Shown here: positions 16,127 through 21,330 of the stretch, one piece after another | How the letters are laid out: each line of letters starts with the position of its first letter | Position numbering within the stretch: position 1 is the stretch's first letter | From: Botrimarina colliarenosi | GTDB taxonomy: Bacteria > Planctomycetota > Planctomycetia > Pirellulales > Lacipirellulaceae | Length of the DNA: 64,000 nucleotides | Assembly (NCBI RefSeq): GCF_007859955.1 | Contig: NZ_SJPR01000001.1 | Span: 935,590 to 999,589 of the forward strand | Direction: 5' to 3' | Notes under the pieces: generated by a model | Databases searched by the model: none | Seen by the model: the letters and a program-made list of their open reading frames with translations, nothing else | Told to the model about the DNA's origin: nothing | Made by a program: the position numbers and the translations under genes

Positions 16127-19100
16127 TCACCGCGGCGGCAGGCTCGGCCGCGTTGCGTTTGGCGTCGGTTGGTACTCGGCGCCGCGGAGGTCGTCGATCG
16201 TTGTGCGGCCGAGTCCGACGTAGTGCGTTAGTCGCTGAGCCGACGCGGGGGCGTAGGCCTGCTGGCCGTTGGAACGGGCCCAGAGGCGGGCGAGCTGCTG
16301 GGCGTCCCCTTCGAGGATGAAGCGGTCGGCCGACTGCGAGTAACTCGCGCGGCCCGCCTCAGCGACGAGACCACCTCCGTCGGCGCCGATCGCCGCGTCG
16401 ATCCGCACGCTGCGGAGCGCGACCAACTCGATCGGACCGATTGGCGCGCCGGTGGTGCTGCCACGCCGCACCGAAGCCGCCGGATCCTCGTGGACGCGGA
16501 GCTCTTCGCAACGCAGTTCGACCGAGTCGGGCGGCACGCCTTCGGGCGAGTGGAGCGGCAACTGGTGATCCCACGCCAGCACGGGGCCGTACACGGTCTG
16601 CACGCCGCCGAGGAACTGCACGCGGCGTTCGAGGTAGTTGCCGCCGATCCCTTCGCGGAAGTCGACGCGGAGGAACTTCAGGCCGTCGCCTTGCTTGCCG
16701 GCGTTCGGTTTGTCAGCGCCCGGAGCGCCGCCGAAAGGGTTGGCGCTCGCGCCGGAGAGCCGCACCGAGCGGATGGATCCCGGCCCCCGGCCGGAGATGG
16801 CGCCGCTGAGGCGATTGATGGCGAGCGAATCGGTCTTCGCGCGTTCGTGCGAGACCTGCCCCGCGGCGTCCGTGCCTCGGTAGTCGACCGTGACGCCGCC
16901 CGAGCACTCGACCTGGGCGACTTCCACCGCGCCGGCGCCGCCGAACGAGCCGTTGCGCAGGTCGATCGGGTGCGAAAGCGTGGCGGTCATCTGAGCGCAG
17001 TTGAGCCAGCCGCCGGCGCTCTCAGCGAAGACCTCGTCGGAGAGGGAGAGTCGAGCGCCGTCGAATTGCATGCCGCCGCGCCAGCGGAGGGTCCCTTCGC
17101 CAGCGAGGGGGTTCGCGCCGTCGCTAGAAGGGAGTTGCAGTCGCGCGTCGCCACGGCCTTCGGTCCACGCACGGCCGGCGGCTTGATCGACATGCAGGTC
17201 GCGGACCCAGACCCGCATCCCTTGCGAGCGGATCTCGGCGAGACCGTGGTGCTCGGCGCCCGCGACCGGGGGGGCGTCGCCGGCGCCGGAGAGCGTTAGC
17301 CGGGCGGCGCCACGGCGTTCGAGCCGGTCGATCCGCAGTTGTTGACCGATAATCTGCATCGGCTCGCCGCCATCGGGGCGGGGGTCTTCGTCGACACGGA
17401 CGCCGCCGTTGCAGACGAGCGCTAGCGGCGCCGCTTGGCGGCCGGCGAGACCGATGTCGAGTTGGATCGATTGGGTCTTCAGGCGGTAGTGTCGATCCGC
17501 GGGTGAAGCGCTCGCCCCCGGGCTCGATCCGAGCGAGGCGCCCAACGCCGGTCCGCCGCCATCGACGACCGCGTCGGCCGGCAAGGGGCGCACCAGGGCG
17601 ACGAGGTTGTCGGCCTGGCCCTCGAGTTGCCGGCCGACGAACTCGACGGCGCCGATCGCGTCGATGCGGTTGATCTGGACAGCGCCCTGCTGGCCATCGC
17701 CGGCGGTGAGCTCGATCGCGGGGCCGTCCTTGCCGTCGGCGGCGACCTCGCTCAGTTGGGTAACAACGCGGTCCGCCCGGAGCTTGCCAATGCCCCCGGC
17801 CGCGAATTCGGGACGACCAACGATCGACAGCACCGGCTGGCCGCGGTCGTCACGCCGCAGCGTGACGGCGGGCTCGCCGCCGGGGATCTCTTTCCAGCGC
17901 GCTTCAAAGTTGCGCTCGGGCTCGTCGGGCGATGGCGTGATCCTCAGCCAACCGGGGCCCGCAGCGAGCAGTTCGCCAACCACCTGCGGCGATCCCGCGG
18001 GGGGCGACGTGTACTCGAGCACCGGGGCCGACGCCTCGCTGAGCCCGTGGGCCAGCTGAGCGGGCGAACCCTCGATCCGCAATCGTCGGTCCGTGATCCA
18101 TGCCCGCAGTCGTCGCCCCCGCACCGCGGCGCTGCGGCTAGGTGAGTCGAGCCGGACCGGCGCGCCAACCGCTTCGATCAGCCGTGGCGTGAGGTTCGAA
18201 ATGAGCCGGCTTTGGCGGCGGGCCAGGTCGGGCTCGTCGACCGGATTGATCTCGGCGGCGGCGCCTTGGGCGTCGCCGAAGTGGAGTCGCAGCTCACGGC
18301 AAAAGAGTTGGTCGTCGGCGACGCCCGGATTGCGGAGCGTCGCGCGGACGTCGTCCTGTAGCGAAGCGATGAAGCGGGTGAAGTCGAAACGGAACGGCCC
18401 GGCGCAGGTGAGTTCTAGCGGCCCCGCGGTTTGGATCGGCCCCTCCGCCGAGACAAGTTGGACGTTCCGATTTGCCGTCGAATCGGACGTCACACGGCGC
18501 GACGTTTCCGCCAAGGCGCCGGTGCTGATCAGCGCCTGCACCTGTTCGCGGATCTCTAGCGATTCGACGCCGGTGATCGGCAAGGACGAGCCGCTGGCGC
18601 CGGCGTGGGGCTCGCTGAGCAGCCGGATCTCCAGCACCTTGCCGTGCGCGCGGTGCGGCCCGATCCGTAGGTCGACCGCCGCGCTGGTGGTGATCATCGC
18701 TTGGTTGAAGCGGAGGTCGCGCGTCACGAGCCGCAGGTCGTCGGCGGGGCCCGGGTCCTTCATGTCGCTGCGGACGATGACCTCGCCCATGAACTCCCCG
18801 GCGACCGGCTTGCCGACGCTGCCGCTGGTGAAGTCGATCCCGCCCCCGCCGTCCGGATTGTCGAACTGGATCACCGAGCGATTGGGGACTTCGGCGATGA
18901 TCGCGTCGCGCGGCGGCGGGGCGCCATGAACGAGGGGCGTCGGGAACGCAACGAGAACGCTGCGGGCGATCTCGACCCGGCCCCCTTCAATCGGCCGAAA
19001 GTCCTCGAGCACAAGCACGAGGGGGCCGTACTCGTACACTTGCGGTGTGCCGAGGAGGGCCCAGTGGTCTGGCGGCAGGTAGCTGGCCAGCATCTTCTGG

Positions 19101-19267
19101 TAGCGGGCAACAGCGATACCGCCGCGCTGCCAATCGTCTTCGCTCGCCGCGTCGTACGCCCGCGTCGGCAGGGCCGGCTCAACGATTGGCACAATCGCCA
19201 AGACGTACGCCTGGTACGCTACCAGGGTGACGGCCAGGGTGACGGCGGCGTTGATGAGGCGTTGCAC
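16127..19267 (-). CDS. Very large periplasmic OstA/LptC-like protein
   Basis: The product has 1046 residues with one N-terminal membrane anchor (about 5-25) and no further hydrophobic segment. The rest is repetitive beta-rich sequence with recurring short units such as VVTQLSEVAADG, LRLVTRDLRFNQAM and VELRCEELRVHEDP, as in OstA/LptA- and LptC-type lipopolysaccharide transport proteins. Position supports this: kdsD and kdsC lie upstream on the same strand, as kdsD-kdsC-lptC-lptA do in enterobacteria. It is several times longer than LptC plus LptA (about 380 residues together). Role in moving lipid A-like molecules across the periplasm is inferred; an AsmA-like function is the alternative. Confidence 0.55.
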   Translation of the reverse strand: MQRLINAAVTLAVTLVAYQAYVLAIVPIVEPALPTRAYDAASEDDWQRGGIAVARYQKMLASYLPPDHWALLGTPQVYEYGPLVLVLEDFRPIEGGRVEIARSVLVAFPTPLVHGAPPPRDAIIAEVPNRSVIQFDNPDGGGGIDFTSGSVGKPVAGEFMGEVIVRSDMKDPGPADDLRLVTRDLRFNQAMITTSAAVDLRIGPHRAHGKVLEIRLLSEPHAGASGSSLPITGVESLEIREQVQALISTGALAETSRRVTSDSTANRNVQLVSAEGPIQTAGPLELTCAGPFRFDFTRFIASLQDDVRATLRNPGVADDQLFCRELRLHFGDAQGAAAEINPVDEPDLARRQSRLISNLTPRLIEAVGAPVRLDSPSRSAAVRGRRLRAWITDRRLRIEGSPAQLAHGLSEASAPVLEYTSPPAGSPQVVGELLAAGPGWLRITPSPDEPERNFEARWKEIPGGEPAVTLRRDDRGQPVLSIVGRPEFAAGGIGKLRADRVVTQLSEVAADGKDGPAIELTAGDGQQGAVQINRIDAIGAVEFVGRQLEGQADNLVALVRPLPADAVVDGGGPALGASLGSSPGASASPADRHYRLKTQSIQLDIGLAGRQAAPLALVCNGGVRVDEDPRPDGGEPMQIIGQQLRIDRLERRGAARLTLSGAGDAPPVAGAEHHGLAEIRSQGMRVWVRDLHVDQAAGRAWTEGRGDARLQLPSSDGANPLAGEGTLRWRGGMQFDGARLSLSDEVFAESAGGWLNCAQMTATLSHPIDLRNGSFGGAGAVEVAQVECSGGVTVDYRGTDAAGQVSHERAKTDSLAINRLSGAISGRGPGSIRSVRLSGASANPFGGAPGADKPNAGKQGDGLKFLRVDFREGIGGNYLERRVQFLGGVQTVYGPVLAWDHQLPLHSPEGVPPDSVELRCEELRVHEDPAASVRRGSTTGAPIGPIELVALRSVRIDAAIGADGGGLVAEAGRASYSQSADRFILEGDAQQLARLWARSNGQQAYAPASAQRLTHYVGLGRTTIDDLRGAEYQPTPNATRPSLPPR

Positions 19268-19275
19268 GGGGATGA

Positions 19276-19662
19276 TTTACCGCGGAGCTCGCAGAGGACG
19301 CGGAGAATTTAGCCGTAGAAGGTCGAGGAGCCGCCGCGGGGCGGGGCGTCGAAGTAGACCTTGGAGTTCTTGAGAAGCGGCCGAAAGTCATCCGGCGGAG
19401 TCGGCGTTTCCCGCCTCGGAGCGACTCTCCTCCAATCAAAAATAAAGTCCTCTGAGATCAATGCGGGCTTCAGCAATTCGCGAGTGAGGGGAAATGCCTC
19501 GTCGAGAAATCCTTCTCGGAACGACGCCTGCGTCTCATCCGGTTTGTGTGGCCCAATCTCATGGGCCGATCCCAACGAAGCAGCTCCGACCATTATCGAG
19601 ATGAGTAGCAACCTGAGCATTTCACCCTCCCTAGAAAGTTAAGTCCGCGTCTCCGCGGTGAA
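19276..19662. repeat. Diverged inverted repeats bracketing a small gene
   Basis: The left copy (19276-19307) contains accgcggag and gacgcggaga; the right copy (19644-19662) is tccgcgtctccgcggtgaa, its reverse complement with about 9 bases missing. They sit immediately outside the stop and just upstream of the start of the 103-residue gene between them. Similar CCGCGTCTCCGCGGTGA-like repeats are familiar as scattered intergenic elements in planctomycetes and cyanobacteria. Confidence 0.6.
19309..19620 (-). CDS. Small secreted protein of unknown function, inverted-repeat bounded
   Basis: The product has 103 residues with a signal peptide (MLRLLLISIMVGAASLGSAH). The mature part is charged and proline-rich (KPDETQASFREGF, FDWRRVAP). 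GGGAGG about 7 bases before the ATG is one of the better ribosome binding sites in the window, which supports a real gene. Its base composition is visibly lower in GC than the flanking kdsC and OstA-like genes, and inverted repeats bracket it, so it may be a late insertion into an LPS operon. No family was recognised. Confidence 0.6.
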   Translation of the reverse strand: MLRLLLISIMVGAASLGSAHEIGPHKPDETQASFREGFLDEAFPLTRELLKPALISEDFIFDWRRVAPRRETPTPPDDFRPLLKNSKVYFDAPPRGGSSTFYG

Positions 19663-19664
19663 GC

Positions 19665-20168
19665 TCATCCGTGTAACGAGCCGGTCGCGGCGTCCCATCG
19701 CCCTGATTCTTTCAATAACTTGTCAACGATCTCCCGCAGCGCCCCGCGACCGCCGGGCGCCAAAGTGACGTAGTCCGCGGCTGCCTTCAGGTCGGCCGCT
19801 GCGTCGGCCACGGCGGCGCCGAAGCCGACCGCTTCGACGGTCGCCAGGTCGGGCAGGTCGTCGCCGATGTAAGCGATTTGGTCGAGGGCGAGCCCTTCCT
19901 CATCGGCGATCTGGCGGACGATGGCGAGTTTCTCGGCGACGCCCTGGTGGACGATCGTGATCGCCAGCTCCGTCGCCCGCTTCTCAACGACGCGCGACGT
20001 CCGGCCGGTGACGATGCCGACCTTGCCGCCGGCGCGCTGCCACAGCTTGACGCCGAGGCCGTCGTGGACGTTGAAGGTCTTGGTCTCGCGGCCTTCTTCG
20101 TCGAACGTCATGCCGCCATCGGTCAGCACGCCATCGACGTCGGTCAGCAGCAGCTGGATTTCGGGCAT
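19665..20168 (-). CDS. kdsC: 3-deoxy-D-manno-octulosonate 8-phosphate phosphatase
   Basis: The product has 167 residues, the usual KdsC length. LLTDVDGVLTDG holds the HAD nucleophile Asp, IVTGRTS is motif II, and GDDLPDL is motif IV. It removes phosphate from KDO-8-P in the pathway to lipid A core. It lies 61 bases downstream of kdsD on the same strand. The presence of both genes argues for a KDO-containing outer membrane in this organism. Confidence 0.9.
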   Translation of the reverse strand: MPEIQLLLTDVDGVLTDGGMTFDEEGRETKTFNVHDGLGVKLWQRAGGKVGIVTGRTSRVVEKRATELAITIVHQGVAEKLAIVRQIADEEGLALDQIAYIGDDLPDLATVEAVGFGAAVADAAADLKAAADYVTLAPGGRGALREIVDKLLKESGRWDAATGSLHG

Positions 20169-20229
20169 GCGTTAAGTAACTAGAGCGTAGATTCAGTTGG
20201 CGAGCCGGCGACGCAAGTCGTCGGAGGAA

Positions 20230-21330
20230 TTACCCCGCCGCGTAAACATCCTCGCCCGGGAAGATCCGCACAGCCGGCTTCGGGGGCGCCTTCGGGACAA
20301 CCGTGGGGGCGTCACCCGCTTCGCGGGCGACGACGTCGGTCACGTCGACGAGGCCAATCGCCTTGCCGGCCGCGTCGATCACCGGCAGTTCGCTGAACTT
20401 GCGGTCTGCGAGGAGGGCGACCGCCTCGCTCATCCGCGCCCCGGATTGAATCGTCGTCGGTCGGCGGACCATGAACTCGCTGACGGGCCGGTCGAGCGAC
20501 TCCAGGTCGCGCTTCTCCAAGAGCCGGGCCAAATCGCTGTCGGTGAAGAGGCCTTCCAGCGAGCCGTCGTCGGCAATCAGCATGACGGCGCCGGTGCGCC
20601 GGCCCGGTTTGCCGGTGCCGACGAGCACCTCACGCACGGTTTGGGTCGCCTTGGCGACGCGGCACTCGGTGAGCGGGCGCATCTCGTCTTCAACGAGCGC
20701 CAACTTGCGGCCGAGCGAACCGCCGGGATGAAAGCGGGCGAAGTCCTCGGCGCGGAAGCCGCGGATCGAGCTCAGCACCAAAGCGATCGCGTCGCCGACG
20801 GCAAGCATCGCGGTGGTGCTGGTCGACGGCGCCAGGCCGAGCGAACACGCCTCGTCGAGTTGCCCGAGCGGCAGCACGACTCGGGCGGCGCGGCCGACGG
20901 TGCTTTGGGTGCTGGCGGTAATCGCGAGGATCGGCGCCCCGAACTCACGCAGGCTCGGCAAGAGCTGGGTGACCTCGGCGGTTTCGCCTGATTGCGAGAG
21001 CATCAACACGATGTCGCCGCGGCCGACACGGCCCAGGTCGCCGTGGAACGCCTCGGCAGGGTGGAGGAAGTGGCTTGGCTGGCCGGTCGAAGCGAGCGTC
21101 GCGGCGATCTTCTGGCCGATCAGCCCGGCCTTGCCCATGCCGGTGACGATCACCGACCCGTGGCACGACTCGAGCAGTTCGATCGCGGCGGCGAACTCGT
21201 CGCCCAGTTGCTGCGAGAGCTTCCAGAGGGCGATCGCCTCGAGACGCATGACCTCGCGCGCAGCGGCGATCCGTTGGGGTTTGGGGAGCGACGTGTCGTC
21301 GCTCGTTGGGTAACGCATCGTAGCGTTCAT
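20230..21330 (-). CDS. kdsD: Arabinose-5-phosphate isomerase (SIS plus two CBS domains)
   Basis: The product has 366 residues. The SIS domain (about 45-200) carries VTGMGKAGLIGQKIAATLASTG, LHPAEAFHGDLG and LSQSGETAEV. Two CBS domains follow (about 215-345). It makes D-arabinose 5-phosphate, the precursor of KDO. The C-terminal tail (PKAPPKPAVRIFPGED) is longer than in E. coli KdsD. ATG 21330 or the in-frame ATG 21318 could be the start. Position just before kdsC supports KdsD over GutQ. Confidence 0.9.
   Translation of the reverse strand: MNATMRYPTSDDTSLPKPQRIAAAREVMRLEAIALWKLSQQLGDEFAAAIELLESCHGSVIVTGMGKAGLIGQKIAATLASTGQPSHFLHPAEAFHGDLGRVGRGDIVLMLSQSGETAEVTQLLPSLREFGAPILAITASTQSTVGRAARVVLPLGQLDEACSLGLAPSTSTTAMLAVGDAIALVLSSIRGFRAEDFARFHPGGSLGRKLALVEDEMRPLTECRVAKATQTVREVLVGTGKPGRRTGAVMLIADDGSLEGLFTDSDLARLLEKRDLESLDRPVSEFMVRRPTTIQSGARMSEAVALLADRKFSELPVIDAAGKAIGLVDVTDVVAREAGDAPTVVPKAPPKPAVRIFPGEDVYAAG

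Follow-up and report, generated by a model that had tools for sequence, protein, structure and literature searches.

A probable site of a dispersed, array-ended cassette family between kdsC and an lptC-like gene in Botrimarina colliarenosi

A small gene located between kdsC and an lptC-like gene in Botrimarina colliarenosi is bounded by two inverted arrays of a 7-bp word. The window analysed here is the whole stretch of 64,000 nucleotides that surrounds it (NZ_SJPR01000001.1, positions 935,590 to 999,589), and the source genome (G000) has 5.27 Mb. We read the kdsC-lptC feature as an occupied site of array-ended cassettes that form a dispersed family and are exchanged as units (probability about 0.6), with the GxxExxY protein as the candidate mobiliser. 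This reading rests on the arm family shared across the genome, the exchange of contents at common junctions and the link between GxxExxY genes and arrays. Comparison of genomes shows pairs of arms, varied cargo, exchanged and empty junctions, the association of GxxExxY genes with arrays, and covariation of protein with array.

The element and its junction in relatives

The genes on the minus strand at this locus are a SIS/CBS gene, a kdsC-like gene, the 103-aa ORF and an LptC/OstA-like gene. The features of the element and its two neighbours are as follows.

16127..19267, minus strand: downstream gene, LptC/OstA-like, with a weak LptD_N match
19274..19278, plus strand: GATTT, the outer part of the lptC-side arm; GATT[CTA] precedes ACC in many arms
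19279..19305, plus strand: lptC-side arm, three CGCGGAG-type heptamers with a 9-bp period, ACCGCGGAG outward (G000, C1:954868); sequence ACCGCGGAGCTCGCAGAGGACGCGGAG
19309..19620, minus strand: cargo ORF of 103 aa with a signal-peptide-like N-terminus and the motif SF..hh...FPLTRE
19621..19643, minus strand: leader from the kdsC-side arm to the ATG, containing GGGAGG, a ribosome-binding-like site
19644..19659, minus strand: kdsC-side arm, two heptamers with an 8-bp period, ACCGCGGAG outward (G000, C1:955233-955248); minus-strand sequence ACCGCGGAGACGCGGA
19665..20168, minus strand: upstream gene, KdsC-like HAD phosphatase, with its stop codon at 19665-19667

The inverted arrays of the CGCGGAG heptamer lie at both ends of the 103-residue gene (19279-19305 and 19644-19659), at distances of 3 and 23 nt from the ORF. 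Only 5 nt (GCTTC) separate the kdsC stop codon from the kdsC-side arm, and 11 nt separate the lptC-side arm from the lptC-like start. Each arm is a short tandem array of the word with spacers of 1-2 nt and with ACCGCGGAG outermost. The element measures 381 bp and is gene-bearing, hence unlike the short non-coding hairpin form described below. Its GC content is 0.580, compared to 0.679 in the flanks. The sequence-only reading, which had placed inverted repeats at both ends of a gene of lower GC content than its neighbours, was thus borne out in both respects. Its assignment of the locus to an LPS operon agrees with the HAD-type kdsC-like and the SIS+CBS neighbours, and the LptA/LptD_N-like match of the third is weak (E 0.065).

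A three-unit arm pattern allowing up to three mismatches matches once in the window (shuffled sequences gave a mean of 0.01, with a match in 1 of 100), and no other array types were found when they were looked for across the window. The 103-aa protein has zero matches among Pfam and NCBIfam models, and a scan of 19000-20300 returned zero Rfam families. Its N-terminus, as read from the sequence, is a putative signal peptide. A structure model of the protein was poor (pLDDT 57.6) and was set aside.

The kdsC gene is present in 39 of 39 relatives. Thirty loci were examined and 28 were readable past the gene; L072, which lacks the motif used, and L066, which ends too soon, were left out. Four of the genomes (G000, G001, G002 and G003) belong to one genus. 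The gene with arms on both sides is present at the kdsC-lptC junction in G000, G001 and G003, and the arms are visibly decayed in G003. In G002, kdsC and lptC are separated by 27 nt that hold neither gene nor arms, which provides the empty-site relative that the sequence-only reading had proposed to look for. Another genus is represented by two genomes, G018 and G005, and each has a homologous small gene at the junction. A model was built from the mature portions of the three genus proteins, and with it each of the two small genes ranks first among 301 sequences (itself and 300 shuffles). The small ORFs of G008, G009, G013 and G020 were rejected as homologues (ranks 58, 8, 25 and 177 of 301). 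G018 retains one decayed arm (p 0.005) and its partner is absent, while G005 has the gene without arms. Conservation of the gene in relatives that lack the repeats had been named in advance as the outcome that would speak against a mobile element, and these two genomes come close to it.

When 43 genomes of the family were searched with a profile, the gene turned up at no place but kdsC-lptC and in no genomes but the five that supplied the profile sequences, and therefore it is not a dispersed cargo in those 43 genomes. In G042, a member of another family, the same junction holds an arm-bounded element with no gene of at least 60 aa on the kdsC strand. From these sequence comparisons, the 103-aa gene is a long-term resident of the junction and no recent arrival. 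The earlier suggestion of a small mobile or passenger element therefore stands in part: the ends belong to a dispersed family, but a recent passenger is disfavoured by the presence of the gene in three of four genus genomes and of homologues at the junction in another genus. As a separate observation, the kdsC gene at L072 (G048) lies between long inverted repeats of another kind, with a score of 82.

Dispersed arms and exchanged contents

The two-unit pattern ACCGCGGAGN{0,12}CGCGGA has 53 matches in G000, and the reversed control pattern has none. When merged by position, the matches correspond to about 44 arms. One merged match (C1:598309) is probably not an arm; the same sequence occurs once each in G001, G002 and G003. 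Sixteen neighbouring arms lie less than 2 kb apart, compared to 0.73 expected at random, and 15 of the 16 face each other (binomial p 7e-9). Together, the reversed pattern (0 vs 53) and the orientation test rule out an origin of the arms by chance or low complexity. The suggestion to search for further copies of the repeats, with or without cargo genes, has thus led to a dispersed family in which both forms are present.

Examination of 20 regions of G000 gave 18 pairs, 15 from the pattern and three whose partner was recognised by a looser rule; L034 and L045 have a single arm only in G000. Ten pairs span 67-158 bp and eight span 381-1512 bp. The spacer class (1 or 2 nt) is common to both arms in 16 of the 18 pairs (p 0.002). 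All six short pairs that were folded form a long, stable terminal stem (z -3.1 to -8.7). For 30 of the 44 arms, a stop triplet (all frames counted) lies within 14 nt, and the fraction for random stretches of the same loci is 0.22. The eight long elements have a mean GC content of 0.556 (flanks 0.667), and their cargo is varied and of low GC, including a GxxExxY/PDDEXK_3 protein, a HicA toxin with a GIY-YIG/DUF4357 protein, a 255-aa ORF that appears membrane-bound, and orphan ORFs. No transposase was found among nine ORFs scanned from the 18 pairs, and no Pfam match to a transposase family was found among 34 different ORFs scanned from between arms. Boundary direct repeats of at least 6 nt, as expected of target-site duplications, were found in none of 22 elements (18 from G000 and four from G001); the mean boundary repeat was 2.91, compared to 2.67 for mismatched flanks.

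Two further repeats were noted in these regions. At L029:1360-1517, an arm pair surrounds a second inverted repeat with TTAGACAGGATT. Close to the GxxExxY site, a different dispersed repeat (L036:2155-2457) matches dozens of places in G001.

Three cassettes of G000 were used as queries against genomes of the same genus, with the outcome not known beforehand. For all three, G001 carries an arm-bounded element with other contents at the same junction. Cross-comparison of the 20 G000 regions with loci of G001 and G003 added six more shared sites, which makes nine between G000 and G001 (L036, L038, L039, L043, L045, L046, L047, L048 and L050), a count of the shared sites found and not a rate. At these nine sites the flanks are 78-91% identical and no ORF is common to the interiors of G000 and G001. 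Stretches shared beyond the arms are limited to 113 and 48 bp at L048 and 28 bp at L047. Both arms are recognised in both genomes at six of the nine sites, and one arm is unrecognisable in one genome at each of L045, L048 and L050.

The contents range from bare hairpins to genes. At L046, the 72-bp bare hairpin of G000 corresponds to a SUKH-domain cassette of G001. L045 has lengths of about 1 kb (G000), 0.43 kb (G001) and 71 bp (G003), the last being a bare hairpin. L039 holds different ORFs in three species, except for one 20-residue match between G001 and G003 (E 0.001), and is empty in G002. GxxExxY occupies L036 in G000 and G003, where G001 has a non-coding element and G002 is empty. Neither G000 nor G001 has an ORF at L050. 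In G003, about 5.4 kb of other DNA separates the two flanks of L047 (L123, L127), and G002 is rearranged there. G002 is empty at all three junctions that are readable in it (kdsC-lptC, L036 and L039). The kdsC-lptC junction is the exception to this turnover in that its cargo has been kept. A long palindrome with arms of the TGTGGGAGGGGTCTCCAGACCCC type was noted separately in the G001 element at the L036 site (L116, about 1281-1500).

The similarity of arms is no higher within a site (0.674) than between sites (0.681; 15 arms, p 0.62), and therefore the arms are replaced together with the cargo. Identical sequence was seen at just one of the 15 compared arm pairs, the right arm of L045. A homing-type exchange, in which conversion takes place inside the arms and the recipient keeps its own, was rejected for the reason that orthologous arms are not retained.

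GxxExxY genes and parallel arrays

The GxxExxY family (TIGR04256) is present in 70 of the 149 genomes of a phylum sample. G000 has seven GxxExxY genes, each between inverted repeats; six have a clear and distinct array word, and the repeat of the seventh (L201) is a G-rich pair. Among the matches listed, 73 GxxExxY loci, mostly high-scoring, were collected, and 71 were testable. An inverted repeat above threshold, mostly an array, was found between the 300-bp flanks at 63 of the 71, compared to 1 of 29 kdsC control loci. The cut-off of 28 points was chosen after the kdsC scores (15-26, one 82) were known. Of 29 loci, 28 pass when the test starts at the GxxExxY match and 23 when it is extended to the whole ORF, since some arms then fall inside the extended ORF. 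Among these first 29 loci, controls of reversed sequence pass in 6 cases and direct repeats in 11, because the arrays are simple in composition and often nested. A further 27 loci, several of which are orthologues of the first set, gave 24 with an inverted repeat.

On plasmids, five of eight matches were examined. Flanked GxxExxY genes were found in Gemmatirosa, Bacteroides finegoldii, Sphingomonas (in the fab operon) and Bernardetia, and no inverted repeat above threshold was found for the Persicobacter plasmid gene. The Sphingomonas cassette lies inside the fab operon as fabD-[cassette]-fabG (L269), and the Bacteroides cassette lies behind radA (L268). A search of plasmid records for empty sites beside Sphingomonas fabD-fabG and Bacteroides radA found only the source records to hold most of the stretch. 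Three genomes of the same genus have kept two GxxExxY cassettes in tandem, each with an array word of its own (L198, L272, L277).

Similarity of the protein is correlated with similarity of its array, both between genomes (rho 0.36; 63 loci, 1902 pairs; 0 of 2000 permutations) and within genomes (rho 0.58, 51 pairs). These sequence correlations show that array and GxxExxY gene travel together, and covariation by itself is no proof of recognition. A GxxExxY match is present in 48 of 59 relatives, and G002 has none. The CGCGGAG pattern matches in 27 of the 48 relatives with GxxExxY and in 4 of the 11 without; the two matches of G002 are not arrays. G001 has many CGCGGAG cassettes, and none of its six GxxExxY genes has that array type.

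GxxExxY proteins carry the motifs D...ExK and QxxxY, and these residues are kept in nearly all of 63 sequences (D 62, E 61, K 62, Q 63, Y 61). The Pfam match is to PDDEXK_3 (E 1.1e-41). The model of the 128-residue protein is confident (pLDDT 94.9), and its best PDB fold matches by Foldseek are 4ic1 (SSO0001, a Cas4), followed by LHK exonuclease. Lower matches include splicing endonucleases, a Cas4-family protein and lambda exonuclease. Residues and fold place the protein in the PD-(D/E)XK family as a predicted nuclease, with fold matches that are weak (best E 1.3e-3). A PDB sequence search gave no match. No work on GxxExxY function was found in the open literature; in one paper, a GxxExxY call stands in place of a cas4 gene (PMC8934634).

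Arms of these types extend beyond the genus. Among the matches listed, the three-unit GC-rich arm occurs in Chloroflexi, Planctomycetota, Latescibacteria, Gemmatimonadetes, Spirochaetaceae, Acidobacteria, Betaproteobacteria and others. The listed matches provided 80 loci, of which 58 are non-actinobacterial with 600 bp of room. The next arm is a facing partner at 28 of these 58, mostly as short hairpins, and is not at the other 30. Two of the interiors among the listed loci are GxxExxY genes. Only 1 of 12 listed actinobacterial loci has a facing partner, and the actinobacterial matches may be coding sequence. An AT-rich arm was found in at least 120 stretches of viral contigs. One viral contig has a pair of facing arms around a Cas2-like ORF (Pfam E 2.5e-6; L461:5366-5716). 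The phage contigs L442, L449, L467, L474, L484 and L511 have single arms at gene ends with differing adjacent small genes, and the flanks of these related contigs are up to about 98% identical. They were rejected as evidence of strain-level insertion; the left arm by a 123-aa gene is a coding false match, and therefore those pairs are not counted as cassettes. Inverted repeats were also found around TIGR02436 four-helix-bundle genes of the 149-genome sample (L168-L197, 30 loci), at 25 of 29 testable loci. Many are arrays of words of about 7 bp such as AGTGGTT and AGGGGTT, and reversed controls pass at 5 of 29.

Interpretation and comparison with known systems

A cassette would be the unit between two inverted arrays of 7-bp words with a period of 8-9 bp. 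It would sit in a tight gap between genes, often just past a stop codon, and its arms and cargo would be gained, lost or replaced whole at a limited set of junctions. The bare hairpins of 67-158 bp would be the cargo-free form and the GxxExxY-carrying cassettes the likely autonomous members, by which passengers such as the window's gene, the HicA/GIY-YIG pair, the SUKH protein and the orphan ORFs would be moved in trans. The window cassette would have been mobile at its arrival. Its cargo would be a fast-evolving, probably exported small protein that has been kept since before the genus diverged.

That GxxExxY itself cuts the arrays and drives movement is inferred and is put forward tentatively, at below even odds. 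A broader proposal is more speculative still. It would define a new class of mobile cassettes, in which a GxxExxY protein of the Cas4/exonuclease fold recognises its own tandem arrays and moves or exchanges any DNA they bound, with no target duplications, with fixed docking sites between genes, and with a separate array word for each nuclease lineage. A parallel system of about 7 bp would surround the four-helix-bundle proteins, and the window gene would be a domesticated passenger. Several observations count against these proposals. The evidence for cassettes comes from genome comparison, with no movement observed, and the covariation is also expected if cassettes simply travel as units. The four-helix-bundle genes carry similar inverted arrays, yet they are no known nucleases. 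The weak Foldseek matches, the absence of target duplications, the GxxExxY genes of G001 without a CGCGGAG array, the control sequences that pass the repeat test and the CGCGGAG matches in relatives lacking GxxExxY count on the same side. The gene of the window's own site is conserved even in genomes that lack the arms.

Other explanations account for parts of these data. The arms could terminate MITE-like elements whose movement depends on an ordinary transposase gene at another place, of the RAYT/TIRYT tyrosine type or from an IS, with GxxExxY as a mere passenger. The short hairpins have a MITE-like look and fold stably in six of six cases, tyrosine transposase genes flanked by long TIRs, with dispersed TIR families, have been published (PMC3733652), and G001 has its CGCGGAG cassettes without a GxxExxY gene of that array. 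This explanation is nevertheless unlikely, given that the 34 between-arm ORFs scanned contain no transposase family in Pfam, that no GTAG/CGTC tag was seen on the arms, and that arrays track the GxxExxY protein and are found at most of its tested loci, both in the phylum sample and in named organisms from other phyla. A dedicated mobiliser may also be dispensable if the arms are short linkers shared between genes and the cargo is swapped through homologous recombination of host or phage origin, or when a whole locus is acquired from other strains. Replacement of whole cassettes without duplications fits such an allele exchange, as do the phage contigs with different small genes by a single arm between nearly identical flanks. 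Orthologous arms are not retained when the cargo changes, however, and therefore the crossovers would fall outside the arms; new sites, bare hairpins and the GxxExxY link would be left unexplained, and we find this account rather improbable.

The two remaining alternatives concern the arms and the gene themselves. If the inverted arms were cis-acting elements such as transcript-processing stems, terminators or insulators, and not the ends of an element, then their frequent position just outside stop codons, the long hairpins of the short pairs and the retention of the resident gene at kdsC-lptC would be accounted for. This is very improbable: at a given junction the arms share the fate of the cargo, be it presence, absence or difference, pairs stand up to 1.5 kb apart around unrelated low-GC cargo that is hard to fit to regulators, and 19000-20300 has no Rfam match. 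It is also improbable, though less so, that the 103-aa gene is an ordinary operon resident around which two arms were inserted by coincidence. Coincidence is favoured by the homologue that a second genus has at this junction, where G005 lacks arms and G018 has one decayed arm, but the arms face each other as at other sites, flank the gene on both sides in three genomes of the genus, and are missing together with the gene in G002.

If the link to arrays holds, the cassette reading would provide a function for the orphan GxxExxY family in its 70 phylum genomes. It would explain the turnover of small toxin, immunity-type and orphan genes between operon genes while operons stay unbroken, and work on DNA insertion would gain compact pairs of array and nuclease. 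The proposal raises the direct question whether a given GxxExxY protein cleaves its own array word and no other.

In the open literature (subscription papers and preprints were outside its scope), no description of such array-ended cassettes was found, and several known systems resemble them in part. In mobile insertion cassettes (MICs), inverted ends flank passenger genes without a transposase, and the elements are presumed to be moved in trans. The 18 pairs, eight of them long, likewise have inverted terminal repeats around non-transposase cargo. They differ from MICs in that no IS with these ends was identified among the between-arm ORFs scanned, target duplications are lacking (0 of 22), the ends are tandem arrays with units of 8-9 bp, and different whole cassettes occupy the same junctions. 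Integron gene cassettes also exchange small, low-GC cargo (toxin, immunity-type and orphan genes) as units, and each has one attC and is held in an array beside the integrase. The cassettes described here share the kind of cargo and its exchange as units but have two inverted ends each and are dispersed and single.

MITEs such as Chunjie of Geobacter uraniireducens are described as short hairpin-forming intergenic elements with many copies per genome (PMC10969869). Ten of the 18 pairs are similarly short, hairpin-forming, intergenic and present in many copies; the other eight are long and mostly gene-bearing, direct repeats were not found, and no parental IS is known. REP/RAYT and TIRYT systems consist of dispersed inverted repeats near the 3' ends of genes and of an enzyme gene bracketed by the same repeats (PMC3733652). 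Both features recur here, but the arms start with ACCGCGGAG, no GTAG/CGTC tag is seen by eye, and the bracketed protein belongs to the PD-(D/E)XK family and not to the HUH tyrosine transposases. GxxExxY differs from the Cas4 and lambda-exonuclease-type PD-(D/E)XK nucleases in having 128 residues and a gene bracketed by inverted arrays, and it is known here from sequence and model. It resembles them in its D...ExK and QxxxY motifs and in a predicted fold that matches 4ic1 and LHK-Exo.
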